Assembly: GCF_011299575.1 (NCBI RefSeq)
Contig: NZ_CP049863.1
Span: 806,001 to 870,000 of the forward strand
DNA length: 64,000 bases
Source of the DNA: Leucobacter viscericola
Lineage (GTDB): Bacteria > Actinomycetota > Actinomycetes > Actinomycetales > Microbacteriaceae
Reading direction: 5' to 3'
A program made the position numbers and the translations under genes. Positions 46,577-62,639 of the stretch are shown here, piece after piece. Under the pieces are notes generated by a model. The model did not search any database, was not told where the DNA came from, and was given only the letters and a program-made list of their open reading frames with translations. Within the stretch, counting starts at the first letter, position 1. Each line of letters begins with the position of its first letter.

Positions 46577-46656
46577 AGCCAAGTCTTAGTGGCGCAGACT
46601 CCCCGATCCAAGCCCCACCAAGAAGGCGCTCCGCCATCCCAGGCTGACGCCCTCGC

Positions 46657-46852
46657 CGAAAGTGCACTTCAGCGCCGAGCCTGCAGTTCTGAACCGCGGT
46701 CTCGGCACCGGAACGCAATCTCGGCACCAGACCGCACGCTCGGCACCGAAACGCAACCTCGACACCAGACCGCACGCTCGGCACCGAAACGCAACCTCGA
46801 CATCAGACTGCACGCTCGGCACCGAAACTCGACCTCGACACCAGGCGGCAGC
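46657..46852. repeat. 19-bp repeat array 1 with inversion centre
   Basis: One reverse-orientation unit (46657-46675), a centre of 19+6 bases (46676-46700, CGAGCCTGCAGTTCTGAAC then CGCGGT), then eight head-to-tail 19-base units from 46701 to 46852 (CTCGGCACCGAAACGCAAC type). Alternate units are more alike, which gives a 38-base super-period. There are no spacers. The 501-base gap between lacI and smpB (46415-46914) holds this array, the GTGCCCAC hairpin and no gene that I can support. Confidence 0.92.
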
Positions 46853-46914
46853 CATCAGCTCCCAAGCATCAGCCATAGGCCCAAAGCACGACACCGCGCC
46901 CGAAACTTTGCGCG

Positions 46915-47391
46915 CTACTCCCCCAGGTGCTTGCGCGCAGAAATGGCGCGCTCCGCCTCACGACGGTCCTGGCGCTCGCGCAGCGTCTGACGCTTGTCGT
47001 ATTCCTTTTTGCCGCGGGCGAGTGCGATCTCAACCTTTGCGCGGCCATCCAAGAAGTACATGCGCAGCGGCACAATTGTCATGCCACCCTCGCGGGTCTT
47101 CTGGTACAACTTGTCAATCTCGTGCCGGTGCAACAGCAGCTTGCGCTTGCGACGCGGAGCATGGTTCGTCCACGATCCGTTGAGGTACTCGGGAATGTAG
47201 GCGGCATCAAGCCAGGCCTCACCGCGCTCGATGAACACGTACCCGTCGACGAGCGAGGCACGCCCCATGCGCAGCGATTTCACCTCGCTGCCCGTGAGCA
47301 CCATTCCCGCCTCGTAGGTGTCGATGATGAGGTACTCGTGCCGAGCCTTCTTGTTCGAAGCAATCAGCTTCTCGCCAGTTTCCTTGGCCAT
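46915..47391 (-). CDS. smpB: SsrA-binding protein SmpB
   Basis: Binds tmRNA and places it in stalled ribosomes. It has 158 residues, typical length. The start is ATG 47391 ([20 protein letters not shown]); the GTG two codons earlier is less likely. Core motifs are [16 protein letters not shown] and the C-terminal basic tail [22 protein letters not shown], which enters the mRNA channel. It follows ftsX on the same strand. Confidence 0.97.
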
Positions 47392-47458
47392 CCCCACATC
47401 CTTTCCTACTCGCGCGGGCGCAATGCCCCAGACTATCTGATTTCAACCACCGCCAACA

Positions 47459-47552
47459 TATCAGCCGGCACAGACACATCAACCGGCACAGACACGTCAG
47501 CCGGACAGAAACCGCGGTTTCCATCCGGCTGATCCACCAGCACCGGCTGGCG
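47459..47552. repeat. CAGCCGG hairpin element, copy 2
   Basis: A hairpin at 47497-47532 (TCAGCCGGA with TCCGGCTGA, inner AAACC/GGTTT around GC) is preceded by two and a half direct repeats of an 18-base unit (TCAGCCGGCACAGACACA type) and followed by CACCGGCTGGCGTG. The GCGGTTTCCA...CCGGCTG blocks match the element at 22881-22972. It lies between smpB and ftsX. Confidence 0.8.
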
Positions 47553-47567
47553 TGCAGAACTTAGGTG

Positions 47568-48482
47568 CTAGACCCGCAGGTACCTGGTAATCGCGATCTT
47601 TGCCGCAATGGACGAGAGGATCGCTCCCACCAGGATCAGGATCGGCGGCACTATCAGCGACTGATCCACCGTGATGTAACTCGTAAACGGCACTTCCTTT
47701 GCCAGGAAGTCCTGCACAAAGAACTTCACGATCGCCACCGAGGCACCGCCCGCAAGCACCGCCCCGATAAGCGCGGCGATCACACCCTCCAAGATAAACG
47801 GCGTCTGAATGAAGCGGTTTGAGGCACCAACGAGACGCATGATCCCGATCTCACGCCGCCGCGAGAACGCCGAAAGTCGAATCGTCGTCGAGATCAGCAG
47901 CATGGCCGCCACGAGCATCAGACCCGCAATCGCGATGGCCGTGTAGCTTGCGACCCCCAAAAACAGGAAGATGCGGTCGAGCAAACTTCGCTGATCCACG
48001 ACGCTCTGCACGCCCGGAATCCCTGAGAATGCCTCCTGAATAATCTCGGACTTCGAAGGATCCTTGAGCTTGATCCAGAACGTCTGGTTCAGCTGCTCGG
48101 GCTTCGTGATGTCCACGATCGGGTTGCCCTTGAACTGCTTCGTGAACTCCTTGTACGCCTGATCGTGCGTCATGAAGAAGAAGTCATCAATAAAAGGCTT
48201 GAGCTCGTCAGACTTCAGCGCAGCTTCGACAGCGGCAATCTGTTCCTTGTCAGCGTCCTTGCCAGAGCACGTCTGGCTCTGCTCAGAGTTGGTGCAGAGA
48301 TACACCGCCACCTGCGCGCGGTCGTACCAGAACGTCTTCATCTGCTGCACCTGCAGCTGCATGATGATCGCCGCGCCCACAAACGTGAGCGACACAAACG
48401 TCACCAGGATCACTGAGATGACCACCGACATGTTTCGACGCAGGCCACTCCAGACCTCGCCAAGTACTAGCCCAACCCTCAT
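47568..48482 (-). CDS. ftsX: Cell division protein FtsX
   Basis: Membrane partner of FtsE that controls cell-wall hydrolases at division. It has 304 residues: one N-terminal helix (about 22-44), a large outside domain (about 50-170) with two Cys ([11 protein letters not shown]) that may form a disulfide, and three helices at about 178-205, 230-255 and 270-295. It overlaps ftsE by 4 bases. The order prfB-ftsE-ftsX-smpB is the common actinobacterial one. Confidence 0.96.
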
Positions 48483-49552
48483 CGTACGGGCCCCACATCC
48501 GTCTGCTCGTCATCGTCTTTTCGGTCCAGCCCGAGGTGCTGTGCAAGATTGCCGGTCTCCGACATCTGCACGGGATCCATCGGCTGCCCCTGCTGCAAGA
48601 AACTCGGGATCGCGGGCTCTTCGCCAGCGCGCCGCGTCACATCGAGATCCTCGTCGTCATCACCCTCACCCTCAAACGGGCGAGGCTCTTCAAATACCGA
48701 CGCCTCGGGCGCTGCGGGTGGTTCCGGAGTCGCCTCAGGCAATACAACGGGCGCAGGATCCGCCACCACCGGCGTCCCGTCGGGCTGCAGCGCAGCCCGC
48801 ACCACGGCCTCGCTCGTGCGCAGCACCTGCGCACCGGCTTCTGACAGATCCGCAATCGGGATCGACGCGGTCTCGCCGTAGCCGCCGCCCTGCTCGTCGC
48901 GCACGATGACACCCTGCGAGAGCTCAACCACACGCTGCTGCATGATGTCAACGAAGGTCGCCTCGTGGGTCGCCATCACCACGGTCGTGCCGGCCGCGTT
49001 AATCGAGCGCAGCAGCTGCATAATGCCGAGGCTGGTTGCGGGGTCGAGGTTACCGGTTGGCTCGTCGGCAAGCAGGATCGCGGGCTTGTTGACGATCGCG
49101 CGCGCAATAGCCACGCGCTGCTGCTCACCACCCGAGAGCTCGTGCGGAAAGCGCTTCGCCTTATTCGCGAGCCCGACCATCTCAAGCGTGTCGGGCACGG
49201 CCTCCTGAATGAAGCCGCGCGACTTGCCGATCACCTGCAGAGTGAAGGCGACATTGTCGTAGACCGTCTTATTGGTCAGCAGACGGAAGTCCTGGAACAC
49301 CGTGCCGAGGCTGCGGCGAAAGTATGGGACCTTACGCGAAGAGATCTTGCTGAGGTCTTGCCCCAGCACGTGGATCTTGCCAACGCTGGGCTGATCCTCG
49401 CGCAAAATTAAGCGCAGGCAGCTCGACTTGCCGGATCCGGAAGCCCCGACAATAAACACGAACTCACCACGGTCGATCTTAAGATCGATGCCGTCGAGTG
49501 CGGGTTTTGCGGTGCCCCGGTACTTCTTGGTGACGTTTTCAAAGAGAATCAT
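48479..49552 (-). CDS. ftsE: Cell division ATPase FtsE with long acidic C-terminal tail
   Basis: The protein has 357 residues, versus about 230 for typical FtsE. The ABC core is intact: Walker [11 protein letters not shown] (about 35-44), signature [10 protein letters not shown], Walker [11 protein letters not shown]. Residues about 235-357 form an added tail rich in Pro, Ala, Glu and Asp (EGEDDEDLD-like) that is probably disordered. GAGGCGTC precedes the ATG. Longer FtsE forms occur in some actinobacteria; the tail might be a docking or regulation site. Confidence 0.95.
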
Positions 49553-49621
49553 GACGCCTCGACAATACGCCCGAACGCTGGATCGTCTGCTCAGGCGCGC
49601 GGGCGTTTTTGCCTAGCTCAG

Positions 49622-50734
49622 CTAATCCTGATTTTGTGAGAGCGAGCGCCAGCGAATGCCAGCGGCGATAAACCCGTCAAGATCACCGTCAAAGACGTTC
49701 TGCGGGTTGTTGACCTCAAACTCGGTGCGAAGATCCTTCACCATTTGATAGGGCGCGAGCACGTAGCTGCGCATCTGATCGCCCCAGCTCGCCGTAATGT
49801 TGCCGGCGAGTTCCTTCTTTTTGGCGGCCTCCGCCTCGCGCTGCAGAATGAGCAGGCGCGACTGCAGCACACGCATGGCGGCAGCGCGGTTTTGGATCTG
49901 GCTCTTTTCGTTCTGCATCGAAACGACCGTGCCCGTCGGAAGGTGAGTGATCCGCACCGCCGAGTCGGTGGTGTTCACCGACTGGCCGCCCGGGCCGCTC
50001 GAGCGATAGACGTCGACGCGAATGTCGCTCTCGGGAATATCGACAGATTCAGCCTCGGGCATCAGCGGGATGACCTCGACCGCGGCGAAACTGGTCTGGC
50101 GCTTGCCCGCCGAGTTGAACGGGCTCATGCGCACGAGGCGATGGGTGCCCGCCTCGACCGAGAGCGAACCGAACGCATAGGGTGCGTCGAACTCGATCGT
50201 GGTCGATTTGATGCCCGCTTCTTCGGCGTAGCTCGTCTCCATGACAGTGACCTTGTAGTCGTGGTGTTCGCCCCAGCGCAGGTACATACGCTGCAGCATC
50301 TCGGCGAAGTCGGCGGCGTCGACACCACCCGCGCCCGCGCGGATCGTCATGACGGCGGGGTACTCGTCGTACTCCCCCGACAGCATCGTCTGCACTTCAA
50401 GCTCTTGCACGAGCCCCTCGATCGCGGCAATCTCCGCGGTCGCCTCGGCTGCAGAGTCTTCGTCCTCAGCCTCAAGGGCCAGCTCGACCAGCACCTCAAG
50501 GTCATCGAGGCGGTCGGCCAGGCTGCGCAGTCGCTTCACCCGCGCCTGGCGGTGGCTCAGGCCACTGGTCACCTGCTGCGCCGCTGCGGGATCGTCCCAG
50601 AGGTCTGGCGCCGCGGCCTGCTCCTCCAGCTCAGCGATCTCGCGATCAAGCTTCGGCAGATCCATCACCGCGGCGATGTCGGCGTAGGTGGCGCGAAGTG
50701 CGCGGATGCGTGAGTTGAAATCAAGTTCGAGCAT
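49622..50734 (-). CDS. prfB: Peptide chain release factor 2
   Basis: Reads UGA and UAA stop codons. It has 370 residues. SPF of the codon-recognition loop ([12 protein letters not shown]) and GGQ of the catalytic loop ([17 protein letters not shown]) are both present. The frame is continuous from ATG 50734 (ribosome site GAGGATC), so there is no programmed +1 frameshift with an internal TGA, as usual in this group. A start three codons earlier is possible. Confidence 0.97.
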
Positions 50735-50792
50735 GATCCTCATACCTTACCGCGCAATGCTTCGCGCCCGATCCCTGTAACGAGCCCGTTCG

Positions 50793-52229
50793 CTAAATCA
50801 CCGATCCCTCGAGCACCTGCGATCCGGCCGGTTCCCCGATGCACTGCCACGCCTCGTGCAACAGACCAACGCCTTCAAGCAGCCTGTCTTCGGGTTCCGT
50901 GAACGGCAGCCGCACGTAGCGCTCAAACGTTCCGGGGCTCCCGAAACGTGGACCGGGCACCAGCCGCAACCCAAGACGCGCGCTGTGCCTGCCCAGCCGC
51001 GAACTGACCGCCTCGCCAAGATCCACCCACACACACGCCCCGCCCTCAGCCGGCGAGAGCGACCAGCTCGGCAGCAGCGCCCCCAGCTGCTCGGTCAAAA
51101 CACGGTGTCGGCTCGTGAGCTGCCGCGTTCGTAGCGCGAGTATCTCGTCATACCGTTCCATAGCCAGCGTGGCAACGACCTGCTCCCACGTCCCTGTGCC
51201 GAGATCTCCAACGCGTCGAGCGGTCTCCAACTGGCCGATCAGGTCGGGTGCCGCCCGGATCCACCCCACCCGCAATCCACCCCACACGGTTTTGCCGAGC
51301 GAACCAACCGTGATGACGTTGTCTTGCTGGTGGGCCTGCTCTGCTGAGGCGGCAAAGGGAATGATCGTTCGCGGTTCGCGCAGCGTGAGCTCTGCGGTTG
51401 TCTCGTCGGCAATCACGTAGGTGCCCTGAGCAGACAGTGTCGCGATGAGTTTGGCGCGCAGCTCGGGTGGCATAGACAGGCCGGTTGGGTTGTGGTGGTC
51501 CGGGATCAGGTACGCCAACCTCGGCGATGTGCGGGCGGCAATGTCGAGCATTGCCGCGGCGTCGTAGCCACCAATATCGACCGGGAGCTCGGCGACTAGT
51601 GCGCCCGCGGCGGCGAGAGCTTCACGCGCGTGGGGGTAACTCGGCGACTCGATGAGGCTGCGGTCACCGCGACGCAGCAGCGTGCGCGCGATCAAAAAGA
51701 TCGCGTGCTGAGCCCCGAGTGTCACCATGATCTGCTCGGGAGAGGTGGGTAGTCCACGAGACGTGTAACGATCCGCAATCGCGGCGCGCAGCATCGGCAA
51801 ACCGATGGTGTCATAGCCACTGAGCCGAAACACCTCGGGGTGCTCCGCGAGGGCACGAGCGCTGAGCTCTTCAATGCCCCGCCAGGGCTCGGGGCAGGCC
51901 CCAGAGAAGTCAATGTCTGTGTTCGCAGCCGAAGACCACAGCTCGGAGTTCTCGCGACGCGGCGTCCGCACCACGGTTCCCGAACCCTGTCGAGACGCGG
52001 CCACCCCCGTCTCGCGCAGGCGCTGATAACTCGCGCTGACGGTCGTGCGGCTCACCCCGAGCGCTTCAGACAGCGGCCGCTCGGCGGGAAGCGCCGCCCC
52101 GGGCACAATGCGCCCGTCGCGCACCAGCATGCTGATTGACTCGCTGAGTTCTAGGTAGCTGTGGCCATCCCCACGCCAGCTTCCGAGCAGCTCGGTGAGC
52201 CTGCGGGCTGAGATTCGCTGCACGATCAT
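50793..52229 (-). CDS. MocR-type (GntR/aminotransferase) regulator, YczR-like
   Basis: The protein has about 478 residues. A GntR winged helix (about 20-85, LSEALGVSRTTVSASYQRLRETG) is fused to a class I aminotransferase-like domain (about 115-470) that keeps the PLP lysine (SLGKTVWGGLRVGW). The start ATG 52229 is chosen; upstream extension enters the divergent promoter. Divergent pairing with a YczE-type membrane protein is the known YczR-YczE arrangement, so it most likely controls yczE with PLP as effector. Confidence 0.9.
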   Translation of the reverse strand: MIVQRISARRLTELLGSWRGDGHSYLELSESISMLVRDGRIVPGAALPAERPLSEALGVSRTTVSASYQRLRETGVAASRQGSGTVVRTPRRENSELWSSAANTDIDFSGACPEPWRGIEELSARALAEHPEVFRLSGYDTIGLPMLRAAIADRYTSRGLPTSPEQIMVTLGAQHAIFLIARTLLRRGDRSLIESPSYPHAREALAAAGALVAELPVDIGGYDAAAMLDIAARTSPRLAYLIPDHHNPTGLSMPPELRAKLIATLSAQGTYVIADETTAELTLREPRTIIPFAASAEQAHQQDNVITVGSLGKTVWGGLRVGWIRAAPDLIGQLETARRVGDLGTGTWEQVVATLAMERYDEILALRTRQLTSRHRVLTEQLGALLPSWSLSPAEGGACVWVDLGEAVSSRLGRHSARLGLRLVPGPRFGSPGTFERYVRLPFTEPEDRLLEGVGLLHEAWQCIGEPAGSQVLEGSVI

Positions 52230-52290
52230 AAGGCCACTGTAAGCGGATTGGCATCTTGCACACAAGGCCAATTTAAAGTGGACTGCTTCT
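52230..52290. promoter_or_regulatory. Divergent control region with AAGGCCA direct repeats
   Basis: Two direct AAGGCCA copies (52230-52236 and 52264-52270) lie 34 bases apart, start to start, in the 61-base gap between the MocR-like gene and yczE. MocR regulators often bind direct repeats spaced about three helical turns apart. Inferred, not shown. Confidence 0.4.
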
Positions 52291-52947
52291 ATGCCCCGAA
52301 AACTCCTGCAACTCATCCCCGGCCTGATCCTCTACGGCATCGCGGACGCCTTTATGATCCGCGCGGCCATCGGCGTCGACTCATGGACCGTGTTTGCTCA
52401 GGGGTTGGCGGTCCACTCGGGCTTTGGCATCGGGATCATCACCAACGTCACCGGCCTCATCGTGCTGCTACTGTGGTGGCCGCTGCGGCAGAAACCCGGC
52501 CTCGGCACGATTCTGAACATCTTGCTGGTCGGCCCGGGCATCGAGCTGGGGCTGTGGTTGCTGCCGACGCCCGAGGAGATGTGGCTGCGCATCGCCTACT
52601 TCGTCTTGGGAATGCTGCTTCTCGCATTAGCGAGTGGCATCTACATCGGCGCCCGCCTGGGCCCCGGCCCGCGCGACGGCCTGATGACCGGCATTCACCT
52701 GCGCTTTGGTACGCCCATCTGGATCGGCCGCACCGGCGTTGAACTCACGGTACTGCTTGTGGGCTGGCTGCTCGGTGGCAACGTGGGCTTCGGCACTCTT
52801 GCCTTCGCCCTGCTCATCGGCCCGCTGTGCGGCATTACGCTGCCGCTGTTTGACCGCCGCTGGCGGAATGACCCAGAGGGCCACTCCGCCACACAGCAAT
52901 CAGACGAGGATCAATCGATCTCTGCACCCTCCGGAACCTTGTTGTAG
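52291..52947 (+). CDS. yczE: YczE-type integral membrane protein
   Basis: The protein has 218 residues and six hydrophobic helices (about 5-25, 40-62, 75-95, 100-122, 145-165, 170-190) of the YczE/YitT-like group, with an acidic polar C-terminal tail. Function is not established; the link to a PLP-sensing MocR regulator suggests transport related to vitamin B6 or an amine. Its 3' end overlaps the end of the convergent amino-acid permease gene by 37 bases. Confidence 0.85.
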   Translation: MPRKLLQLIPGLILYGIADAFMIRAAIGVDSWTVFAQGLAVHSGFGIGIITNVTGLIVLLLWWPLRQKPGLGTILNILLVGPGIELGLWLLPTPEEMWLRIAYFVLGMLLLALASGIYIGARLGPGPRDGLMTGIHLRFGTPIWIGRTGVELTVLLVGWLLGGNVGFGTLAFALLIGPLCGITLPLFDRRWRNDPEGHSATQQSDEDQSISAPSGTLL

Positions 52948-54314
52948 CCGGTGACCGGCTGGGACTCGTCGAAGCCAGCGACCTTACGCTTGAATCCCTT
53001 GGTGATGTAGACCAGATACCCGAAGCCGAGAACCGTCCAGATAATGCCGCCGACGAGTGCGTCGAGGCTCAGGTTGACCCACAGCAGGCCGGTGAGCAAC
53101 ATACCGATGGCCGGCATCACGATGTAGTTGAAGATGTCCTTCAGCTTCTTGTGACGCCCCCTCCGCACGGCAAACAGCGCAATCACTGAGATGTTGACAA
53201 AGGTGAAGGCGATGAGCGCACCGTAGTTGATGAACGACGCGATGAGGTCGAGGTTGAACGACATCGCCAGCAAGCAGATCACACCAACGAGGATGATGTT
53301 GAGTGTCGGGGTGTGAGTCTTGGGGTTGATGTAGCCAAAGAACTTCTTGGGCAAAACATTGTTGCGACCCATCACCAGCAGCATACGAGACACGGAAGCG
53401 TGCGAGGCGAGCCCCGACGCGAGGGTGGCGGCGAACCCGGCCGAGGTGAGCACTGCCTGGAAGCCCTTGCCGCCGACAACCTCACCGATCTGAGTGAGCG
53501 CGCTGTCACTCAGCGAAGCCTCGTTGAACTCGTTGAAGTCCGGGAATCGCAGCTGTGTGAAGTAACCGGCGATCAAGAAGATTGCACCACCGAGAATCAC
53601 GGTGAACAGAATCGCCTTCGGCATGATGCGGGGGTGCTTCGCCTCTTCGGTGTACATGGTCACCGCGTCAAAACCGATGAACGAGAAGCAGACCACGGTA
53701 GCCCCGGCCAAGACCGCGCCCATTTCCACCCCACTGTGGAAGAACGGCTTGATCGAAGCGACGGTGCCAGCTCCATCGCCAGCAGAGAGCTGCGCCCACA
53801 CGAGCACCACAAATACGATCATCACGACGATCGAGAACACCAAGAGAATCATGTTCATGTTCGAGGTGCCGCGCATGGTCAGGTAGATGACCGAGGTCAC
53901 GAGGATGCAGTACAGGATCACCCAGATGCCCGACCAGATGCCCGGGAACAACTGCTCGAGGTAGTTACGAATGATGAGCGCGTTCACCATTGGCAGCAAG
54001 ACGTAGTCAATGAGTGAGGTCCAACCCACCATAAAACCAAGGTTCGGGTGAATAGATTCTTTTACGTAGGTGTAGGCGGATCCCGCGCTCGGGATCGCCC
54101 CCGACATCTTGCCGTAGCTCACCGCGGTGAACATCATGACGATGAGCGCCACAAGATAGGCCAGGGGCACAACATTGTTGGTCTCCTGCGAGACAATGCC
54201 AAAGGTGTCAAACACCACGGTGGGGGTCATGTATCCAAGCCCGAGACCGACGATGGCCCAGAGTCCTAGATTTCGTTTGAGGGTGCCACCCTTTGCTTTG
54301 GCGGGTGCAGTCAT
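52911..54314 (-). CDS. APC-family permease, PuuP-like putrescine importer
   Basis: The protein has 467 residues and 12 hydrophobic helices. The start is ATG 54314 with GAGGAGAG upstream. The first helix (GLWAIVGLGLGYMTPTVVFDTFG) and the SYGKMSGAIPSAGSAYTYV segment closely resemble putrescine importer PuuP. The neighbouring polyamine ABC operon and aminotransferase support putrescine or a related amine as substrate; other amino acids cannot be excluded. Confidence 0.85.
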   Translation of the reverse strand: MTAPAKAKGGTLKRNLGLWAIVGLGLGYMTPTVVFDTFGIVSQETNNVVPLAYLVALIVMMFTAVSYGKMSGAIPSAGSAYTYVKESIHPNLGFMVGWTSLIDYVLLPMVNALIIRNYLEQLFPGIWSGIWVILYCILVTSVIYLTMRGTSNMNMILLVFSIVVMIVFVVLVWAQLSAGDGAGTVASIKPFFHSGVEMGAVLAGATVVCFSFIGFDAVTMYTEEAKHPRIMPKAILFTVILGGAIFLIAGYFTQLRFPDFNEFNEASLSDSALTQIGEVVGGKGFQAVLTSAGFAATLASGLASHASVSRMLLVMGRNNVLPKKFFGYINPKTHTPTLNIILVGVICLLAMSFNLDLIASFINYGALIAFTFVNISVIALFAVRRGRHKKLKDIFNYIVMPAIGMLLTGLLWVNLSLDALVGGIIWTVLGFGYLVYITKGFKRKVAGFDESQPVTGYNKVPEGAEID

Positions 54315-54440
54315 AGTTCTCTCCTCGATTTGGAGTTCACACACGAGGAGGTATCAGCGCCCCGTTGCAACATTAAATCAATGGGCGCTGTTGCCCACCG
54401 GGTCAATCTTGCACCCATGAGCCCGCTCGCGCAAAACGAA

Positions 54441-54481
54441 GTGTGGCGCAGGATCCAAATGCCGTAGATCCTGCGCCACAC
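54441..54481 (-). terminator. Terminator of the potDABC operon
   Basis: A perfect 15-bp stem (GTGTGGCGCAGGATC with GATCCTGCGCCACAC) has an 11-base loop, 16 bases past the permease stop, and the minus strand then reads TTCGTTTTG. Confidence 0.88.
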
Positions 54482-54496
54482 CCTGTGCTTTTGGTG

Positions 54497-55300
54497 TTAC
54501 TTGCTTGCCAGGCGTTTCTGATTGTTGATACGCACTACCTGCACGATGATTACCAGCAGCAGCGCGCCCACAAAAACGATCGAGGCGAGTACGTTTGCCT
54601 GCGCAGGGACGCCCTTTGCGGCCGCGGTATAGATGAACTTCGGGAAGGTACTCACGGCACCCGAGTTGAAGTTTGTGATAATGAAATCATCGAACGAGAG
54701 CGCGAAGCTCAAGAGCGCCGCACCGATAATTCCCGGCATGAGCGTCGGAAGCGTGATCCTGAAGAACACCTGCCCCGGAGAGGCATAGAGATCCCGCCCT
54801 GCCTCTTCAATGGCCGGGTCCAGACTCGCAACCCGCGCTTTCACAACAACAACCACGTACGAGATGCAGAACATGATGTGGGCCAGGATGATTGTGCCGA
54901 GCCCCTTCTCCACGCCCATCGTCAAGAACTGATACGCCAGCCCCGCGCCCAGAACAACCTCAGGGGTCGCCATCGGCGTAAACAGCAGTAAAGAGATCGT
55001 GCTGCGAAACCGGAAGCGATACCGCACGAGCGCGATGGCAATGAGGGTTCCCAGTACCGTTGCAACGACGGTGGACACCACACCAACGATAATGCTGTTG
55101 CTAAACGCGGTACACACTTCTGGTGCCCCACAAATGTTCTGCCAGTTGTCGAGCGTAAAGCCGTTCCACTTAATGTTGTTGCGGCCTCGCTTCTCGTTGA
55201 AGGAGAAGATGATCACGTTCACGATTGGCAGCAGCAGGTAAATCAAGACAATAATGCTGGCGACCGGCACAAAGGCCCGGCCAAGGCTCCACTTTTTCAC
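54497..55300 (-). CDS. potC: Polyamine ABC transporter permease, PotC type
   Basis: The protein has 267 residues and six helices. The EAA coupling loop (EEAGRDLYASPGQVFFRITLPTLMPG, shown in part) is at about 170-195. An NIKWNGFTLDNWQNIC segment is typical of PotC. It overlaps the PotB gene by 4 bases. The last gene of the operon. Confidence 0.92.
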   Translation of the reverse strand: MKKWSLGRAFVPVASIIVLIYLLLPIVNVIIFSFNEKRGRNNIKWNGFTLDNWQNICGAPEVCTAFSNSIIVGVVSTVVATVLGTLIAIALVRYRFRFRSTISLLLFTPMATPEVVLGAGLAYQFLTMGVEKGLGTIILAHIMFCISYVVVVVKARVASLDPAIEEAGRDLYASPGQVFFRITLPTLMPGIIGAALLSFALSFDDFIITNFNSGAVSTFPKFIYTAAAKGVPAQANVLASIVFVGALLLVIIVQVVRINNQKRLASK

Positions 55301-56157
55301 AGGAGGTCCTCCGTCCCGCTACGGCGCACGTACGCGATGATGAGCACCAGGATGACTACCATGAGCACAATCGAGAGAGACGCTGCCAGGGGGTAATTCT
55401 GAGTCTGCAGAAAGTTGGACTCGATGACGTTACCGACCATTGCCGTATCGATACTGCCGAGGAACTGCCGCGAGGCATTGACGTAGTCGCCCGACATCGG
55501 AATGAAGCTGAGCAGCGTGCCGGAAACCACACCCGGCATTGACAGCGGCAGTGTCACCTTCCGAAACACGGTGGCCGGAGACGCGTACAGGTCCGATCCT
55601 GCTTCGAGCAATCGCATGTCGAGCGACTGCAGCGAGGCGAAAATCGGCAACACCATAAACGGGATGAAGTTGTAGACGAGACCAAACACCACGGAGAAGT
55701 CGGTCCCCATCCACTCGGTTGGCAGAATCTGCTTCCACGACAGCGTTCGCAGCAGGAAGCTGATGAAGAAGGGCGCGATCACCAAGATCAGCAGGATGCC
55801 CTGCAGCATCGGCTTCGAGCGGACGCGAACCCCGATCAGGTATGCAAGCGGGTAGCTGATCAGCAACCCCACGACGGTGCCGATCAGCGCATAGACAAAG
55901 GAGCGGAGAATCTGTGGCCAATACTCCTGAATGGCCGCCCAGTAGTTTGTGAACTGCAACGCTGCAACGTAGTCACCGATCCCCTGCCCCTCAGCGGGAA
56001 CCTGGAGCGACGTGATGATGAGTTGGATAAACGGCGTCACGAAGAAGAGCAGCATGTACATGATGCCCGGTGCGAGCAAAAGAAGTACGATCCAGCGCCC
56101 CTTCTTTGGGGCTTGCTCAACGACCTCGGTATTGGCCGCGAACGCGGTAAATGCCAT
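55297..56157 (-). CDS. potB: Polyamine ABC transporter permease, PotB type
   Basis: The protein has 286 residues and six helices. The EAA loop LLEAGSDLYASPATVFRKV is at about 180-198. It has a short polar N-terminal extension (about 1-22). It starts 9 bases after the potA stop and overlaps potC by 4 bases. Confidence 0.92.
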   Translation of the reverse strand: MAFTAFAANTEVVEQAPKKGRWIVLLLLAPGIMYMLLFFVTPFIQLIITSLQVPAEGQGIGDYVAALQFTNYWAAIQEYWPQILRSFVYALIGTVVGLLISYPLAYLIGVRVRSKPMLQGILLILVIAPFFISFLLRTLSWKQILPTEWMGTDFSVVFGLVYNFIPFMVLPIFASLQSLDMRLLEAGSDLYASPATVFRKVTLPLSMPGVVSGTLLSFIPMSGDYVNASRQFLGSIDTAMVGNVIESNFLQTQNYPLAASLSIVLMVVILVLIIAYVRRSGTEDLL

Positions 56158-56166
56158 GAGCGTCTC

Positions 56167-57348
56167 CTACCCTGAGATCTTCGACTGCGCGGCAATGGTG
56201 CGGGTCGAGAGATCAGCGGTCAGCGCACCGGTCTCTAGGCGGTCGTCAGCAAGGCCAAAGGTGTGCGAAACCTGCCAGCTCAGCCAGACCTCGTCCCCCA
56301 GCTGCACCGACGGACCAACCTCAACGTTCTGGGCGAATACTTGCACCTCACCCGCACCGGGCACCTCCACGGTGTACTGCGTACTCACACCGATAAACGA
56401 GACATCGGTGACGCGCCCGGGGCCCACCACGTTCACAGCGGCATCCGCCACAGGGGCCTCACTGTGCAGTCGGAGCTTCTCGGGTCGCACACCTACGGTT
56501 ATCGAGCCGCTCTCGCGCACGCTGCGCGCTCGCGGCACCGTAATCCGCGTGCCGTTTTCATGGCTCGTGGTGATCGCCTGGTCGGTGGTGCCCACAACCT
56601 CAACCTCAAACAGGTTGGACTGCCCCAGAAAACTCGCTACAAACACCGTGCGCGGCAGGTCGTACAGCTCTTCGGGAGCACCCTGCTGCTCGATCCTGCC
56701 CTTGTTCATGACCGCCACGGTGTCGGCCATAGTCATGGCTTCCTCCTGGTCGTGAGTGACATGCAAGAAGGTCAGTCCGACCTCCTGCTGGATCTGTTTG
56801 AGTTCCTGCTGCATCTGGCGGCGCAGTTTCAGGTCGAGTGCCCCAAGCGGCTCATCGAGAAGCAGCAGCGCGGGCCTGTTCACAATCGCGCGGGCAAGTG
56901 CCACACGCTGCTGCTGACCGCCCGAGAGTTGCACGGGTTTGCGCGCGGCGAGATTATCGAGTTCGACGAGCTGCAGTGCAGCGTGAGCCTTGCCGAGAGG
57001 ATCGGCGATCCCCCGCCGCCGCAGTCCAAATGCCACGTTCTCAACCACCGTCATGTGAGGGAAAAGCGCGTACGACTGGAACACCGTGTTCACGGGGCGC
57101 TTGTGCGGCCCGAGGGCGGTCACGTCGCGGCCACCAATCTTGATGCTCCCGGTCGTCGGCTCTTCGAGCCCCGCCACGAGCCTCAGGGTCGTCGTCTTCC
57201 CGCAACCGGAAGGCCCAAGTAGCGCGAAAAAGGACCCGGCAGGAATGAGAAGATCCATTCGTTCCACGGCGGTGAACCCCGGAAAACGCTTCTGAATCCC
57301 GACCAGCTCAAGATCTGCACCGGATTCAGCAAAAGAATGCACGTTCAT
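56167..57348 (-). CDS. potA: Polyamine ABC transporter ATPase, PotA type
   Basis: The protein has 393 residues. Walker A GPSGCGKTTT (about 44-53), signature LSGGQQQRVALARAI, Walker B LLLLDEPLGALD; a C-terminal TOBE/OB domain (about 290-380). The QSYALFPHMTV segment is typical of the spermidine/putrescine group. It starts 4 bases after potD ends. Confidence 0.93.
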   Translation of the reverse strand: MNVHSFAESGADLELVGIQKRFPGFTAVERMDLLIPAGSFFALLGPSGCGKTTTLRLVAGLEEPTTGSIKIGGRDVTALGPHKRPVNTVFQSYALFPHMTVVENVAFGLRRRGIADPLGKAHAALQLVELDNLAARKPVQLSGGQQQRVALARAIVNRPALLLLDEPLGALDLKLRRQMQQELKQIQQEVGLTFLHVTHDQEEAMTMADTVAVMNKGRIEQQGAPEELYDLPRTVFVASFLGQSNLFEVEVVGTTDQAITTSHENGTRITVPRARSVRESGSITVGVRPEKLRLHSEAPVADAAVNVVGPGRVTDVSFIGVSTQYTVEVPGAGEVQVFAQNVEVGPSVQLGDEVWLSWQVSHTFGLADDRLETGALTADLSTRTIAAQSKISG

Positions 57349-57352
57349 AGCG

Positions 57353-58558
57353 TTATAGCCCCAATGCCTTCTGGAATGTCTTGGAGTAGCGGTTGTCTTC
57401 CTCCGGAGTCAAGATGCGGAAGGTGCGAAGCTTTTTCATGTCGGCTTCAGTCGGGAAGATGGCCGGGTTGTCGACCTGCGACGGATCAACCTTCTTCATG
57501 GCCTCCTGCGCCCCCTTCACCGGGGTGACATAGGCAACATAGGCGGCTACCTCTGCCGCGATTTCAGGCTGGTAGTAGTAATTGATCAGCTCTTCGACCT
57601 TCTTTTTATTGGCGGCCGAGGTGCCATTGGGCACGGTAAAGGAGTCGCGAGCGATGAGGCCACCAAACTCGGGCAGATCGACACCCCACTGCTTATCGAG
57701 CTCAACGTTCATCATCACGACGTCACCGGTCCACACGAACCCTGCGAGCATCGTGCCCGTTTCCAGATCCTGCGTGTAGTCGTTGCCCTTCACATTGCTA
57801 ATCTGTCCGCTGTCGAGTGCATCAACCAGCCACTCCATGGCTTTGTCGAACTCAGCGTCGCCCCATTTTCCGCTGGGATCGACACCCTGTCCCGACAGGA
57901 TCAGGCCGATGGTGTCCCTCATCTCACTGAGCACCTGAACCTTGCCCTTGAGTTCTGGCTGCAGCAGATCGTCCAGTTCGTGAAGACCTTTAGGCAGGGC
58001 CTTCTTGTTCCATGCCCATCCCGTTGTCGGCAGCTGCCAGGGGATGGAGTGTTTGCGGCCCGGATCCTCTGCCAACGCGTCCCACTCAGTATCGAGCAGG
58101 TTGCTCTTGACGTTCGGAAGGTTTGCGTAGTCAAACTCTTGGACTTGATCGGCCAGGATGAGACGGGCGTCCATCCAATCCGTCATCGTGATGACGTCGT
58201 AACCCGTGAACTGGTCGAGCTTCAGAGCATCCTTGATTTTGCCGTAGAAGGTGTTGTTGTCATCGATATCTTCGGCGTAGTTCACCTGGATACCGGTCTT
58301 CTTCATGAAGGCTTCCAGCGTGGGGTTTGTACTACTCGACTCATCAAAGTCGAGGTAGTAGGTCCAGTTGCCCCAGATGATTTCGTCTTTGCTGGATCCA
58401 CCCCCGCTGCTCGGAGCGCACGAGGCAAGGGCCGCTGTGCCAAGTCCAGCGGCGCCAATAGCGGCGCCCCTGAGTAGCTGGCGACGATTGAACTGAGCGC
58501 CACGAAGCATACTGACGATGTTTCGAACAATCGGATCTTCGGGCAATTGCTGGGCCAT
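57353..58558 (-). CDS. potD: Polyamine-binding lipoprotein, PotD/PotF type, Tat-exported
   Basis: The protein has 401 residues from ATG 58558 (GGGAGAG upstream; an upstream start at 58606 adds an unlikely tail). A twin-arginine motif (NRRQLLRG, about 24-31) precedes a hydrophobic stretch and a lipobox ALASC, so it is a lipid-anchored, folded-exported binding protein. The ligand-binding domain (from WGNWTYYLDFDE) fits the bacterial polyamine-binding family. First gene of potD-A-B-C; divergent from the AsnC regulator. Confidence 0.93.
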   Translation of the reverse strand: MAQQLPEDPIVRNIVSMLRGAQFNRRQLLRGAAIGAAGLGTAALASCAPSSGGGSSKDEIIWGNWTYYLDFDESSSTNPTLEAFMKKTGIQVNYAEDIDDNNTFYGKIKDALKLDQFTGYDVITMTDWMDARLILADQVQEFDYANLPNVKSNLLDTEWDALAEDPGRKHSIPWQLPTTGWAWNKKALPKGLHELDDLLQPELKGKVQVLSEMRDTIGLILSGQGVDPSGKWGDAEFDKAMEWLVDALDSGQISNVKGNDYTQDLETGTMLAGFVWTGDVVMMNVELDKQWGVDLPEFGGLIARDSFTVPNGTSAANKKKVEELINYYYQPEIAAEVAAYVAYVTPVKGAQEAMKKVDPSQVDNPAIFPTEADMKKLRTFRILTPEEDNRYSKTFQKALGL

Positions 58559-58810
58559 GAGAACTCTCCCTTGAATTTCAATGGTAAAAACCGGCGCAGC
58601 ACGCAAACGGCAACGGCGCCGGGTTGTGACTCGAATATGGCACAGACCTCATGACCTTGCAAAGGGGCCACGCCAAATCGAGTTTTTCGTCACTCAACAG
58701 TTATGTTTTGCCACTCCATCCCGGGGCACAGTGCCGGAAAACTCCGTTTTGGAGGGGCAAATCTTCGGATTCCTTTGCCTTTTCAGCATTTCGCTGCCAG
58801 AATCGCATGT

Positions 58811-59278
58811 GTGAGCAGCAAGCGAAACACGTTAGCGCTCGACTCCACGTCGAAAGCGATCATCGAGCAACTCCAGCTCGATGGGCGCCGATCGTACGCG
58901 GAAATCGGGAAAGCGGTCGGCCTCAGTGAGGCCGCCGTGCGTCAGCGTGTGCAGAAGCTCACGGATGCCGGTGTCATGCAGATTGTTGCGGTGACCGATC
59001 CCATGCGGCTCGGTTTCAGCAGACAAGCCATGCTCGGCATTCGCGTTTCTGGTGACACCAGAGTCGTTGCAGACAGCCTTGCCGGGATGCCAGAGATCAG
59101 CTACGTCGTGCTCAGCGCGGGGTCCTTTGACATCATGGTCGAGATTGTCTGCGAAGACGACGATGCCCTCATCGAGGTGCTGAACGAAAAGATCCGCACT
59201 CTCGACGGTGTCGCCTCTACGGAGACATTCGTCTACCTCCAACTCAAAAAACAAAAATACGACTGGGGAACAAGATAA
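58811..59278 (+). CDS. Lrp/AsnC family regulator
   Basis: The protein has 155 residues with a GTG start at 58811; the longer frame from 58703 has no homology before this point. A helix-turn-helix (RSYAEIGKAVGLSEAAVRQRVQKLTD, shown in part) is followed by the RAM/ACT-like sensor (about 75-150). It lies 2 bases before the aminotransferase and divergent from potD, so it probably governs both in response to an amine or amino acid. Confidence 0.93.
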   Translation: MSSKRNTLALDSTSKAIIEQLQLDGRRSYAEIGKAVGLSEAAVRQRVQKLTDAGVMQIVAVTDPMRLGFSRQAMLGIRVSGDTRVVADSLAGMPEISYVVLSAGSFDIMVEIVCEDDDALIEVLNEKIRTLDGVASTETFVYLQLKKQKYDWGTR

Positions 59279-59280
59279 CC

Positions 59281-60675
59281 ATGTCCTACGATCCCACTGC
59301 GGCAGTTGATACTGCTGCCCTTCAGGCCTCGGCTAAGCGCCACATGTGGCCACACTTCACGAACCGCAAGGTTCTGAATGACGGCATTCCCGTCATCACC
59401 CGTGCTGAAGGTCACCACATCTACGATGCGGCTGGCAAGCAGTACATCGACGGCCTCGCGGGCCTCTTCGTTGTGAACGCTGGCCACGGCCGCGACCGCA
59501 TCGTGCAGGCTGCAGCGAAGCAGATGAAGCAGCTCGACTTCATGCCGATCTGGTCTTACGGCCACCCGGCAGCGATTGAGCTCTCCGAGCGCCTCTCCGG
59601 ATACGCGCCTGGCCAGATGAACAAGGTGTTCTTCACCACCGGCGGCGGCGAAGCCGTTGAGTCTGCGTTCAAGCTTGCCAAGCACTTCTGGAAGATCAAG
59701 GGCAAGCCGATGAAGCACAAGGTCATCTCGCGCTCGGTTGCCTACCACGGCACCCCGCAGGGTGCCCTGGCCATCACCGGTATCCCCGACATGAAGAAGT
59801 TCTACGAGCCTCTTACCCCGGGCGGCCACCGCGTGCCGAACACCAACTTCTACCGTGCAGAAGAGATGGGCGCACCGTCGAACGACCTCGAGGCGTTCGG
59901 TCAGTGGGCTGCAAACCGCATTGAAGAAGCGATCCTGTTCGAGGGCGAAGACACCGTTGCGGCCGTCTTCCTTGAGCCGGTACAGAACTCGGGTGGCTGC
60001 TTCCCGCCTCCCCCCGGTTACTTCAAGCGCGTTCGCGAGATCTGCGACAAGTACGACGTGCTGCTCGTCTCGGACGAGGTCATCTGCGCCTACGGCCGCG
60101 TTGGCGAGTTCTTCGCTTCGAAGGCACTCGGCTACGAGCCCGACATCATCACCTCGGCCAAGGGCATCACCTCGGGCTATGTGCCCCTCGGTGCCATGAT
60201 CGTCTCCGACAAGGTTTCGGAGCCGTTCAACTCGACCGAGAACACCTTCTACCACGGCTTCACCTTCGCTGGTCACCCGGCGGCGGCAGCTGCGGCACTT
60301 GAGAACCTCGACATCTTTGAGGAAGAGGATCTCAACGGCCGCGTGCGCGAGAACAGCCCGCTGTTCCGCGCCGAGCTCGAGAAGCTGCTCGACATCGACA
60401 TCGTCGGTGACGTGCGCGGTGAGGGCTACTTCTTCGGTATTGAGCTTGTCAAGGACAAGGCAACCAAGGAGACCTTCAACGAGGAAGAGTCGGATCGCCT
60501 GCTGCGCGATTACCTCTCCCCCGCACTGTGGGAGGCCGGCCTCTACTGCCGCGCTGACGACCGTGGAGACCCCGTTATCCAGCTTGCACCGCCGCTGACC
60601 ATTGGTCCGTCGGAGTTCGCTGAGATCGGCGGCATCCTGCGCAGCGTTCTGAAGGACGCTTCGTCGAAGATCTAG
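59281..60675 (+). CDS. Class III aminotransferase, probable putrescine/omega-amine transaminase
   Basis: PLP enzyme of 464 residues. The PLP lysine is in SAKGITSGYVPLGA (about 297-310), the phosphate/cofactor segment TTGGGEAVESAFKLA (about 119-133) and DEVICAYGRVG carries the conserved Asp. The pattern matches omega-transaminases using pyruvate (SpuC-like). Together with PotABCD and PuuP-like uptake it would convert putrescine to 4-aminobutanal. GABA or beta-alanine as substrate is possible. Confidence 0.9.
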   Translation: MSYDPTAAVDTAALQASAKRHMWPHFTNRKVLNDGIPVITRAEGHHIYDAAGKQYIDGLAGLFVVNAGHGRDRIVQAAAKQMKQLDFMPIWSYGHPAAIELSERLSGYAPGQMNKVFFTTGGGEAVESAFKLAKHFWKIKGKPMKHKVISRSVAYHGTPQGALAITGIPDMKKFYEPLTPGGHRVPNTNFYRAEEMGAPSNDLEAFGQWAANRIEEAILFEGEDTVAAVFLEPVQNSGGCFPPPPGYFKRVREICDKYDVLLVSDEVICAYGRVGEFFASKALGYEPDIITSAKGITSGYVPLGAMIVSDKVSEPFNSTENTFYHGFTFAGHPAAAAAALENLDIFEEEDLNGRVRENSPLFRAELEKLLDIDIVGDVRGEGYFFGIELVKDKATKETFNEEESDRLLRDYLSPALWEAGLYCRADDRGDPVIQLAPPLTIGPSEFAEIGGILRSVLKDASSKI

Positions 60676-60701
60676 TCTGACGCTTTTTGCGCCGACTTCG
60701 T

Positions 60702-60729
60702 GGCCCGCTCTGCTTCGGCAGGGCGGGCC
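60702..60729 (+). terminator. Hairpin terminator after the aminotransferase gene
   Basis: GGCCCGC pairs with GCGGGCC and the inner CTGC/GCAG closes a TTCG tetraloop. It lies 26 bases past the stop. Confidence 0.75.
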
Positions 60730-60762
60730 ACGGTCGTTTCTGGGGGTGCGCCATTTCGTTGC

Positions 60763-60927
60763 AGAGCCAGCATTTCGCTCTCGAGCTTGCACCTCAGCGC
60801 CGAACTGGCATCTCAGTCCCGAACTTGCTCCTTGGCGCCGAGCTTGCCCCTCAGCGCCGAGCTTGCCTCTCAGCGCCGAACTTGCAGTTGGGAGCCGCGG
60901 GCTCAGCGGTGAGCTGCAGGCTCGGGG
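60763..60927. repeat. 19-bp repeat array 2 with inversion centre
   Basis: Reverse-orientation 19-base units run from 60763 (first one decayed) to 60876 (CGAGCTTGCACCTCAGCGC type), then the centre (60877-60901, CGAACTTGCAGTTGGGAGC plus CGCGGG), then one forward unit (60902-60920) and a partial one. It is the same plan as array 1 but with most units on the other side. Lies between the aminotransferase and the AbiEi-like gene, which converge. Confidence 0.9.
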
Positions 60928-60941
60928 TATCGCAGCGCTCA

Positions 60942-61946
60942 CTAGGGCAACCGATTCCTGGCATTGCGCAGCTTCGGATCACCAAAGACCCCAAATGACG
61001 CGAACCGCGCCTCGAATCTCTCTTGTGTTTCGACATCATCGATTCCAAAGCGATACATCATTTTCTTCGTGGTCCCGCGAATCCAATCTTCACGAGCTTT
61101 CTCTTCACGCAGCAGTTGTTTCGCGTCTTTACCACTTGCCATTTCTTTTTCGAAGTATTTCCCTACTCCATCGGCCTCAGCGAAGGCTCCGTGGTCTAGT
61201 AACTCAAAATCTGGGCGCAAGTTGTGCCCGTTCGGACCCGGCACCCGCACCTGAATCTCAACGAGAATCCCCGCTCGCGCAAACCTGAGGCGCCCAACGC
61301 TCTCAAGCACCGATTCTGCCCGGCCGTCCGCGAACTCAAGCACCCGTCGAGCCCGGCGAACCCCTCTCGCTCCTGGCATACCGTCGAGCTTTGCAATTGC
61401 CGTCTCTCGCCAGATTTCCTGAGCATCAACAGAACTTTCTCTATCTGCAAAGAATTCAAGGTTCAGCGCAGCGTCCATGCACCCAAGCGCCAGTTCAGCG
61501 CTTGCAAGACGAGCTAGGTCCAGCACGGTCCGATTCACATTTGTAACGCGCACACCAGCAATCTCTGTGATCTCGTGCTCGGCAAGTGTTCCCTCGTGGC
61601 GCATGACTCGAGCTGTGCTCCGCCTCACATCGTTCTGAGGATAGGTTTCGTGCACGCGGATCCCGCTAAACCGATACAAGGGAAGACCGAGAAGCGCCGC
61701 TGCCGTGTAATGCGAGAACACAGGGGTCCGAACCTCCCTATCACTATGGGCGAGAGCCACCGCAATTTGACGCCCCTCGTTATAAAGCCCCTCCCAATCC
61801 CTACTCAAGATGTAGCAGCCTCTTGACAGGACGATCACCCGCTGCCTTCTTCGATTAGTGCGCAGATCATTTTGCTCCGCGCTCGAGAGCTGGTCCCAAT
61901 AACGAATCATCGCGCGAATCTTTGTAATGCGTTGCGCGGGATCCAT
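60942..61946 (-). CDS. AbiEi-like / DUF559-like protein without partner
   Basis: The protein has 334 residues. The N-terminal and middle part looks like the AbiEi antitoxin domain group (RGCYILSRDW, then SHYTAAALLGLPLYRF and the VNRTVLDLARLAS segment). The C-terminal part (from about 235) has RPDFELLDHGAFAEADG (about 260-277), a P-D...E-x-D pattern as in DUF559/Vsr-like PD-(D/E)XK nuclease folds. No AbiEii toxin gene is adjacent. The ATG 61946 with AGGGAT is chosen over a longer frame to 62060. It is flanked on both sides by 19-bp repeat arrays. Function uncertain. Confidence 0.8.
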   Translation of the reverse strand: MDPAQRITKIRAMIRYWDQLSSAEQNDLRTNRRRQRVIVLSRGCYILSRDWEGLYNEGRQIAVALAHSDREVRTPVFSHYTAAALLGLPLYRFSGIRVHETYPQNDVRRSTARVMRHEGTLAEHEITEIAGVRVTNVNRTVLDLARLASAELALGCMDAALNLEFFADRESSVDAQEIWRETAIAKLDGMPGARGVRRARRVLEFADGRAESVLESVGRLRFARAGILVEIQVRVPGPNGHNLRPDFELLDHGAFAEADGVGKYFEKEMASGKDAKQLLREEKAREDWIRGTTKKMMYRFGIDDVETQERFEARFASFGVFGDPKLRNARNRLP

Positions 61947-62111
61947 ATCCCTAGTCTGACAACTCGATGCCCCTCGCTGCTTTCGAATATGCCAAATGTG
62001 GATAACTACGACGCATGTGAACGTCTCTTCAGAATGTGAGCGACGCTCGTCGGAGCTCAATTTCGCTCAATTTGCACGATCCTGAAAGCTCGACCCAGCA
62101 CCCATTTTTGT

Positions 62112-62274
62112 CGAGATTGCACCTCATCGCCGAGCCCGCGGTTTGGAGCCGCAGGCTCGGCGCCGGAACGCAGGCTCGACGCTGGAACGCAGGCTCGGCG
62201 CTGGAGCGCTAGCTCAGCGGGGAAGCACTAGCTCGGCGGGGAAGCGCTAGCTCAGCGGTGAAGCGCGGGCTCGG
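62112..62274. repeat. 19-bp repeat array 3 with inversion centre
   Basis: One reverse unit (62112-62130), the centre (62131-62155, CGAGCCCGCGGTTTGGAGC plus CGCAGG), then six forward 19-base units from 62156 to 62269 (CTCGGCGCTGGAGCGCTAG type) and a partial one. The 423-base gap between the AbiEi-like gene start and rpsO (61947-62369) holds this array, the rpsO terminator hairpins and an AT-richer stretch (about 61970-62090) with the AbiEi-like promoter. Confidence 0.92.
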
Positions 62275-62290
62275 CAAAAGGGGCATGCCA

Positions 62291-62346
62291 GGGGCGCGCA
62301 GCGCCCCAAACGCAGAAGCGCCCCCGCCAAAAGGCGGGGGCGCTTC
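62291..62346 (-). terminator. Tandem hairpins after rpsO
   Basis: A strong hairpin (62315-62346, GAAGCGCCCCCGCC with GGCGGGGGCGCTTC, loop AAAA) lies 23 bases past the rpsO stop; a second (62291-62307, GGGGCGC/GCGCCCC) follows. Together they make a likely terminator. Confidence 0.85.
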
Positions 62347-62369: not shown

Positions 62370-62639
62370 CTATCGACGCAGACCAAGGCGCTCGATGAGC
62401 GAGCGGTAACGCGTGATGTCCACGTCCTGGAGGTAACCCAGGAGGCGGCGGCGCTGGCCGACGAGCAGCAGCAGGCCACGGCGCGAGTGGTGATCGTGCT
62501 TGTGATCCTTGAGGTGCTCGGTCAGATCCTTGATCCGGCGGGTGAGCATTGCAACCTGAACCTCTGGGGAACCGGTGTCACCAGGCTTGGTTGCATACTC
62601 GTCGATGATTGCTTTCTTGACCTCTGCGGGCAATGCCAT
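62370..62639 (-). CDS. rpsO: 30S ribosomal protein S15
   Basis: The protein has 89 residues, exact family length. It binds 16S rRNA early in small-subunit assembly. Conserved stretches [36 protein letters not shown] and QRRRLLGYL are intact. The leader (62640 to about 62721) has a small perfect hairpin (62705-62718, GCCGTT/AACGGC), which might take part in S15 autoregulation. Confidence 0.98.

Follow-up and report, generated by a model that had tools for sequence, protein, structure and literature searches.

Repetitive extragenic palindromes (REPs) and bacterial interspersed mosaic elements (BIMEs) accompanied by REP-associated tyrosine transposases (RAYTs) are, in the sections of PMC2817692 and PMC3733652 that deal with them, dispersed palindromes with variants peculiar to each genome that lie mostly between convergent or co-directional genes, near the 3' ends of these. 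The passage of PMC3733652 on the phyla that have tagged REPs does not include Actinobacteria, and the word is absent from the main text of that paper. The BrickBuilt miniature inverted-repeat transposable element (MITE) of Porphyromonas gingivalis, as set out in the structural sections of PMC4596501, has 19 intergenic copies in one strain and contains a spacerless 23-nt tandem repeat. The present subject is a family of palindromes in Leucobacter, met as three intergenic arrays of a 19-bp repeat in a window of 64,000 nucleotides (bases 806001-870000 of the one-contig, 3.70-Mb genome of Leucobacter viscericola, labelled G000). On balance, these arrays are probably enlarged copies of a dispersed, non-coding, non-autonomous palindrome of a REP- or MITE-like kind that is spread by a putative factor.

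Like the REPs portrayed in those sections, the Leucobacter elements are palindromes scattered between genes, with an excess at gene 3' ends, though the bias is unclear in one non-Leucobacter carrier (G356). They differ from such REPs in length (73 bp against 20-40 bp), in having arms made of doubled 19-bp modules, in number (about 25 copies tabulated here against usually more than 100), and in the absence of the GTAG/CGTC tag at one end, CGAG/CTCG being found near both ends (by eye, in an alignment of 68 rows). They fall outside the definition of a REP/RAYT system, as 54 Leucobacter genomes yielded no Y1 transposase. BrickBuilt, likewise a small dispersed intergenic element with a spacerless tandem repeat, is on the cited sections the nearest precedent found for a minisatellite within such an element, but its repeat is described as enclosed by a leader and a tail subunit, with short inverted ends, whereas the Leucobacter repeat units are themselves the palindrome arms on both sides of a dyad. 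The elements resemble MITEs in being small, inverted-repeat and of moderate copy number, and in being non-coding as judged from length only, and differ from them in that no target-site duplication is established and no autonomous relative with shared ends is found in G000 or in a second Leucobacter genome, G009 (at most 3 mismatches). Rfam gives only transfer-messenger RNA and tRNA in the window at the gathering cut-off, and two sub-cut-off matches at ten loci (E up to 0.1), both outside the elements. No description of these repeats was found in an open-access library, although one may exist elsewhere; dispersed intergenic palindromes are known as a kind, and the doubled-arm variant is undescribed as far as the searches reach. 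Understanding of dispersed palindromes is best for genomes that have a RAYT transposase; the Leucobacter set shows similar habits with no RAYT found. Its geometry is conserved and its sequence drifts from genus to genus, and a way for a palindrome to become a minisatellite is built into it. The set makes testable what moves palindromes in RAYT-free genomes and how two-sided satellite arrays arise. Unit numbers could serve as strain markers if they vary between strains.

The earlier note, made from the letters of the window, described three arrays of a common plan at 46657-46852, 60763-60927 and 62112-62274. All three are confirmed at these coordinates: Tandem Repeats Finder reports periods of 19 and 38 at each, the noted numbers of reverse and forward units (1+8, 6+1 and 1+6 in arrays 1, 2 and 3) are recovered when partial or degenerate extras are set aside, and in every case the 19-bp units are directed outward on either side of a fixed 21-bp dyad. 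The units abut without unique spacers, so that the arrays are not clustered regularly interspaced short palindromic repeats (CRISPR), and with two orientations around a fixed centre they are not an ordinary minisatellite, as had been claimed. The conserved inversion centre exists, but in place of the proposed 19+6 bases it is best drawn as a dyad in which the last 10 bases of the unit occur as two inverted copies around one base, CCTGCRGTTC N GAACYGCAGG. The parts of the arrays are:

46661..46679, minus strand: array 1, left arm, a single reverse 19-bp unit, with a partial outer unit at 46653-46660
46680..46700, no strand: array 1, centre, the 21-bp dyad CCTGCAGTTC T GAACCGCGGT, which matches other loci
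46701..46852, plus strand: array 1, right arm, eight forward 19-bp units showing a higher-order period of 38 bp
60767..60880, minus strand: array 2, left arm, six reverse 19-bp units, with a seventh, degenerate unit outside
60881..60901, no strand: array 2, centre, the 21-bp dyad
60902..60927, plus strand: array 2, right arm, a forward unit (60902-60920) and a partial second
62116..62134, minus strand: array 3, left arm, a single reverse unit
62135..62155, no strand: array 3, centre, the 21-bp dyad
62156..62276, plus strand: array 3, right arm, six forward units (62156-62269) and a terminal partial unit

The plan is not peculiar to the window. Array 3 used as a blastn query gives 26 matches in the G000 genome, and the earlier note's refuting condition, a centre found nowhere else, fails, for the two-sided plan occurs at no fewer than 24 loci of the chromosome (24 are tabulated) and in relatives. 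Measured from start to start, the innermost reverse unit and the innermost forward unit are 40 bases apart in 19 of 19 tabulated arrays. The arm pattern has 96 matches in G000 and 42 in G009 (at most 3 mismatches), and its reversed control has 0 in both, which places the arm repeats beyond chance. Reverse and forward neighbours of this pattern in the two genomes are exactly 11 nt apart in 33 of 34 pairs; the pair in array 1 stands at 49 nt, or 11+38, since its innermost forward arm differs from the pattern by more than 3 mismatches. Fourteen of the 50 sites in G000 and G009 have no arm pair at that threshold and were left out of the pair count. With at most 3 mismatches allowed, G000 has the centre motif at 24 places, 18 of them tabulated elements and 6 not, and the reversed motif occurs at 0 places in G000 and 2 in G009. 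Matches to the centre pattern outside the table include two similar 21-bp palindromes beyond the window, CCGGCAGTT...AACTGCCGR, at 3003843-3003863 and 3004277-3004297 of G000, 434 bp apart.

A sequence-only model derived from 27 cores (19 from G000, 8 from G009) and run on 53 other Leucobacter genomes adds five loci in G000 and finds many in G009 and in a third genome, G024. In the remaining 51 genomes no match is better than E 5e-4, except for one in G017 (1.5e-5). The working set comprises 57 elements, 24 in G000, 26 in G009 and 7 in G024, with G024 matches beyond those listed left out; also outside it are the G017 copy, a copy at G009:1374719 whose left half is partly deleted, and a weak one at G024:57047. 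The exact arm pattern occurs in 0 stretches of a genome contig collection from which near relatives are possibly absent, and plasmid and phage collections contain no match to one compact G009 copy. Each genome has its own variant, as 26 of 48 arms in G000 have C at unit position S and 42 of 52 in G009 have G, and the two bases adjoining TGC vary among copies within one genome. The repeat family is genuine and the doubled-arm palindrome is unusual. A two-sided 19-bp array with a divergent unit, RGCGGTTTCGACGGCGRGA, and about four units on one side is seen in G017 at L113:955-1090. In G009 a block of 209 bp with two palindromes 93-94 bp apart is present twice at 91% identity (L086:2001-2162 and L088:2000-2162).

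The compact element, of about 73 bp, reads CGCCGAG-CCTGCRTTTCASCGCCGAG-CCTGCGGTTC-N-GAACYGCAGG-CTCGGCGSTGAAAYGCAGG-CTCGGCG. Outward from the middle base, either arm consists of GAACYGCAGG, 19-bp units of the form CTCGGCGSTGAAAYGCAGG and usually a CTCGGCG-like terminus. The smallest form is a 73-bp imperfect palindrome in which the 13-mer YGCAGGCTCGGCG occurs twice per arm, 19 bases apart. Copies in G009 are mostly compact, with at most two units per arm in 23 of 26, and the mean number of units per element is 3.3 there and 6.4 in G000 (by a loose threshold that counts degenerate units), with a range of 2 to 15 within G000. Units of the same arm in G000 share an identity of 0.74 when adjacent and 0.72 when not, whereas the value is 0.59 for opposite arms of one array and 0.61 between different arrays; neighbouring units are identical in five arms. 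Homogenised head-to-tail units of the minisatellite type are thus found within each arm only. Left and right unit numbers are hardly correlated (0.12 over 24 arrays), and the arms seem to grow independently.

There are fairly strong grounds to infer that units are duplicated within one arm at a time, giving a two-sided array with a fixed centre. Each arm contains a 13-bp direct repeat at a 19-bp pitch, through which units would be duplicated within that arm while the midpoint stays single, and since a local duplication within an arm cannot copy the centre, this would explain why there is only one. The earlier note had suggested growth from the centre outward or a protein bound to the centre. 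The two-sided plan and fixed centre on which that idea was built hold, but neither explanation is needed, though either may play a part, as slippage within the arms would suffice.

In Leucobacter the elements lie preferentially behind genes. The 57 Leucobacter sites are convergent in 28 cases, tandem in 24 and divergent in 4, with 1 within a weak open reading frame (ORF). The numbers expected for 56 sites are 7.0, 34.6 and 14.4 when gaps are weighted by number and 8.1, 28.4 and 19.5 by length, the background being gaps of at least 80 bp in the window and in 17 further 20-kb stretches (15 of G024, 2 of G000). At 25 of the 57 sites a called gene ends no more than 75 nt from the centre; at one of these, L087, the call runs into the element. 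The genes flanking the window arrays are:

45407..46414, plus strand: regulator gene of the LacI type, in convergent orientation to smpB with array 1 between them; family matches below curated cut-offs
46915..47397, minus strand: smpB, 3' end towards array 1 (NCBIfam, E 4.8e-64)
59281..60675, plus strand: aminotransferase gene, 3' end towards array 2 (NCBIfam NF005102, E 3.6e-224)
60942..62060, minus strand: ORF of 372 codons between arrays 2 and 3, 3' end towards array 2, with a counterpart at the corresponding place in G009
62370..62639, minus strand: rpsO (S15), 3' end towards array 3 (TIGR00952, E 1.1e-37)

The ORF at 60942-62060 has no match in Pfam or NCBIfam. It was tried as a candidate mobile gene and rejected, as a motif scan of 29 loci finds it only there in G000 and G009; one short match in L005 is taken as spurious.

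Relatives of the element occur beyond Leucobacter. An order-wide search of 248 genomes (E up to 1e-5) with the sequence-only model added one carrier, G220, which belongs to another genus of the Microbacteriaceae and whose copies have the identical 19-21-19 register with CGAG-ACTGCA boxes. In G220 three whole copies follow one another at steps of 132-133 bp in one locus and three at 174 and 152 bp in another. A structure model from 68 cores matched 13 of 398 genomes of the family, in 7 of 85 genera (E up to 1e-6), with the known carriers G009 and G024 outside these 13. Its copy numbers, at least 8 in G356 and at least 6 in G258, are lower bounds, since scoring covered 12 candidates in each genome, and for some genera the evidence is one to three matches. 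By eye, the matches L231 (G122) and L239 (G408) are doubtful as they have no skeleton, and L229 (G470) has a partial one. Structure-model matches lean towards pairing because they were found by a hairpin model, which does not apply to G220. Across genera CGAG/CTCG at a 19-nt pitch is near-constant and the bases after CGAG vary by lineage (CCTGC, ACTGC, ACTTC, CGCGC, CGTGC, ATTGC). The non-Leucobacter copies inspected by eye look compact. Placement (convergent, tandem, divergent, inside a called ORF) is 9, 3, 1, 1 in G220; 1, 4, 2, 1 in G356; 2, 2, 1, 1 in G258; and 4, 5, 0, 0 for nine single matches, one of which is the G017 Leucobacter copy. The 3'-end bias is therefore strong both in Leucobacter and in G220, and G356 does not show it clearly.

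It is possible to join these observations in one sequence of events. A compact palindrome of about 73 bp would be dispersed by a putative trans-acting factor that reads its dyad or hairpin, with four CGAG-type boxes, and prefers gene 3' ends, and each genome would amplify its own palindromic variant. Replication slippage or unequal crossing-over would then duplicate units in one arm at a time, and the midpoint would remain single, leaving a fixed centre, unequal arms and a two-sided array. Resident copies would decay afterwards, largely without compensation. Spread by a factor that favours gene 3' ends is a weaker inference than duplication within arms.

Comparison between species, with one genome for each, points to turnover or conversion of copies. 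For seven sites of G000 there is a copy at the matching position in G009 or G024. At L013/L100 and L014/L101 the G000 copy is matched best by the positional G024 copy; at the other five the copies of the two species are no more alike than other copies, and simple inheritance of same-place copies is withdrawn as an explanation. Arrays 2 and 3 share 64% identity with L080 of G009, ranking 19 and 21 of 26. At the shared loci that are not best matches the outer flanks are 80-91% identical, and the stretch adjoining L011 is 74% identical; the DNA of the ORF at 60942-62060 is 67% identical to its G009 counterpart against 86-90% for the outer flanks. None of arrays 1, 2 and 3 has a corresponding copy in G024, the nearest relative by comparison of the aminotransferase (95%). 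Behind smpB, at the place of array 1, G024 has a simple 10-bp inverted repeat, CGAGAGTGCA/TGCACTCTCG (L122:1073-1129), possibly an eroded relative of that array. A long TGGGT run is found in G024 (L167:11150-11250) in a stretch that replaces a G009 palindrome.

Several results weigh against the account of a mobile, slippage-prone palindrome. The elements would be mobile on this account, but no clean empty site was found among the compared copies. The best case of presence and absence, L109 of G000 against L164 of G024 with GTAG at both edges (L185 was also compared), is ambiguous as proof of insertion, since a third species keeps the flank and a deletion in G024 is equally possible. No separated pair of arms surrounds a gene in G000 or G009 (at most 3 mismatches), all matches being in known elements, and Y1_Tnp (PF01797), the RAYT-type transposase, is found in 0 of 54 Leucobacter genomes, the control rings giving 5 of 14. 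De novo formation or gene conversion among copies is a possible source of the same pattern. Unit numbers hardly differ at the orthologous pairs L013/L100 and L014/L101, so that slippage is deduced from unit similarity and not watched. The gene calls behind the placement counts come from a home-made codon-usage caller. In an alignment of 27 cores none of five covariation measures is clearly above shuffles. Among 68 cores, 14 of them from another genus, 82.3% of cells are paired against 76.8% in shuffles and 178 are double-changed against 112.7 (sd 9.2), but the pairs changed on both sides are not raised (19 against 20.3), and as the shuffles ignore relatedness the pairing excess is not proof. 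It may be read, though this is not proof, as a palindromic consensus renewed in each lineage while single copies drift.

More tentatively, the elements could be a class of mobile palindromes found across the Microbacteriaceae with a strict four-box geometry of 19-21-19, moved by a putative non-RAYT enzyme that reads the folded strand. The specificity of this enzyme would drift with the bases adjoining the near-constant CGAG boxes, giving every genome a dialect of its own, and the enlarged arrays would be decay products.

An RNA-level device, in which a very stable hairpin at the 3' end terminates or protects the transcripts of one or both flanking genes and extra units are by-products, is unlikely. 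The bias towards 3' ends in Leucobacter, with a gene end within 75 nt at those 25 sites, would suit it, and sections of PMC3733652 argue that similarly placed REPs are transcribed. A single strand is predicted to fold across the centre, as the earlier note had supposed. Among the eight sequences folded, four compact cores form near-perfect hairpins with z of -8.9 (L014), -10.0 (L076), -10.5 (L095) and -10.4 (L100) against shuffles, and a core of a second palindrome family, described below, gives -9.8; the three cores of the window arrays, however, fold only moderately better than shuffles (-3.2, -2.5 and -4.2). Compensation in each resident copy, tried as evidence for a hairpin, is weak in G009 (562 of 676 arm positions paired against 545.2 in shuffles, P 0.005, a signal that may come from a mix of sub-families), borderline in the compact copies of G000 (171 of 208 against 165.6, P 0.08) and in G258 (182 of 216 against 174.3, P 0.06), and absent from the enlarged G000 arrays (344 of 416 against 343.6 expected), from G024 (P 0.23), from G220 (11 copies, near-duplicates removed) and from G356. 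Intrinsic terminators likewise form a stable hairpin, often shortly after a stop codon, but differ in that, among 70 sides of compact copies, only 4 show a run of at least four T after the stem (such a run is present in about 2% of the 15-mers of the window), that the Leucobacter element is a repeated sequence family, and that copies within G220 and G356 show no compensation. A GC-rich hairpin that belongs to rpsO itself lies at 62317-62344, in the interval from the gene to array 3.

Still less probable is an array of protein-binding sites, in which the dyad would be the nucleation site of a DNA-binding protein that then extends over the phased 19-bp half-sites, with a role in, for instance, chromosome organisation, and extra units would tune occupancy. 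The geometry of four boxes at 19/21 spacing is kept while the sequence drifts between genera, and arms in G220 and G356 keep their consensus without copy-by-copy compensation, as protein sites would. Against this, units range from 2 to 15 within one genome with unequal arms, the two bases beside TGC vary between copies of one genome, and there is no candidate protein. Ordinary intergenic minisatellites, or variable-number tandem repeats (VNTRs), with a two-sided look by chance share the homogenised head-to-tail units within an arm (including the 38-bp period of array 1) but not their single orientation, and are regarded as refuted, since the same centre sits at a fixed distance (19 of 19 arrays, 33 of 34 arm pairs) and relatives have compact two-arm copies.

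The second Leucobacter palindrome family, in G018 and G021, shares the plan of the first but has an 18-bp pitch and an arm of TCCGGCTGAGCG-TTCAAA-TCCGGCTGAGCG. It has 12 matches in G018 and 11 in G021 (E up to 0.001, both strands counted), at L125:874-958 (G018), L134, L135, L142-L151 and L154-L160, and in a named collection 7 stretches match its pattern, each of them belonging to Leucobacter sp. Ag1 or OLIS6. At the 3' end of smpB these two genomes have an inverted repeat of 129 bp with 39-bp arms (L124:1037-1165 in G021, L125:989-1117 in G018). Two further short tandem repeats with a period of 18 bp are found in the window, at 47456-47509 and 3432-3509.

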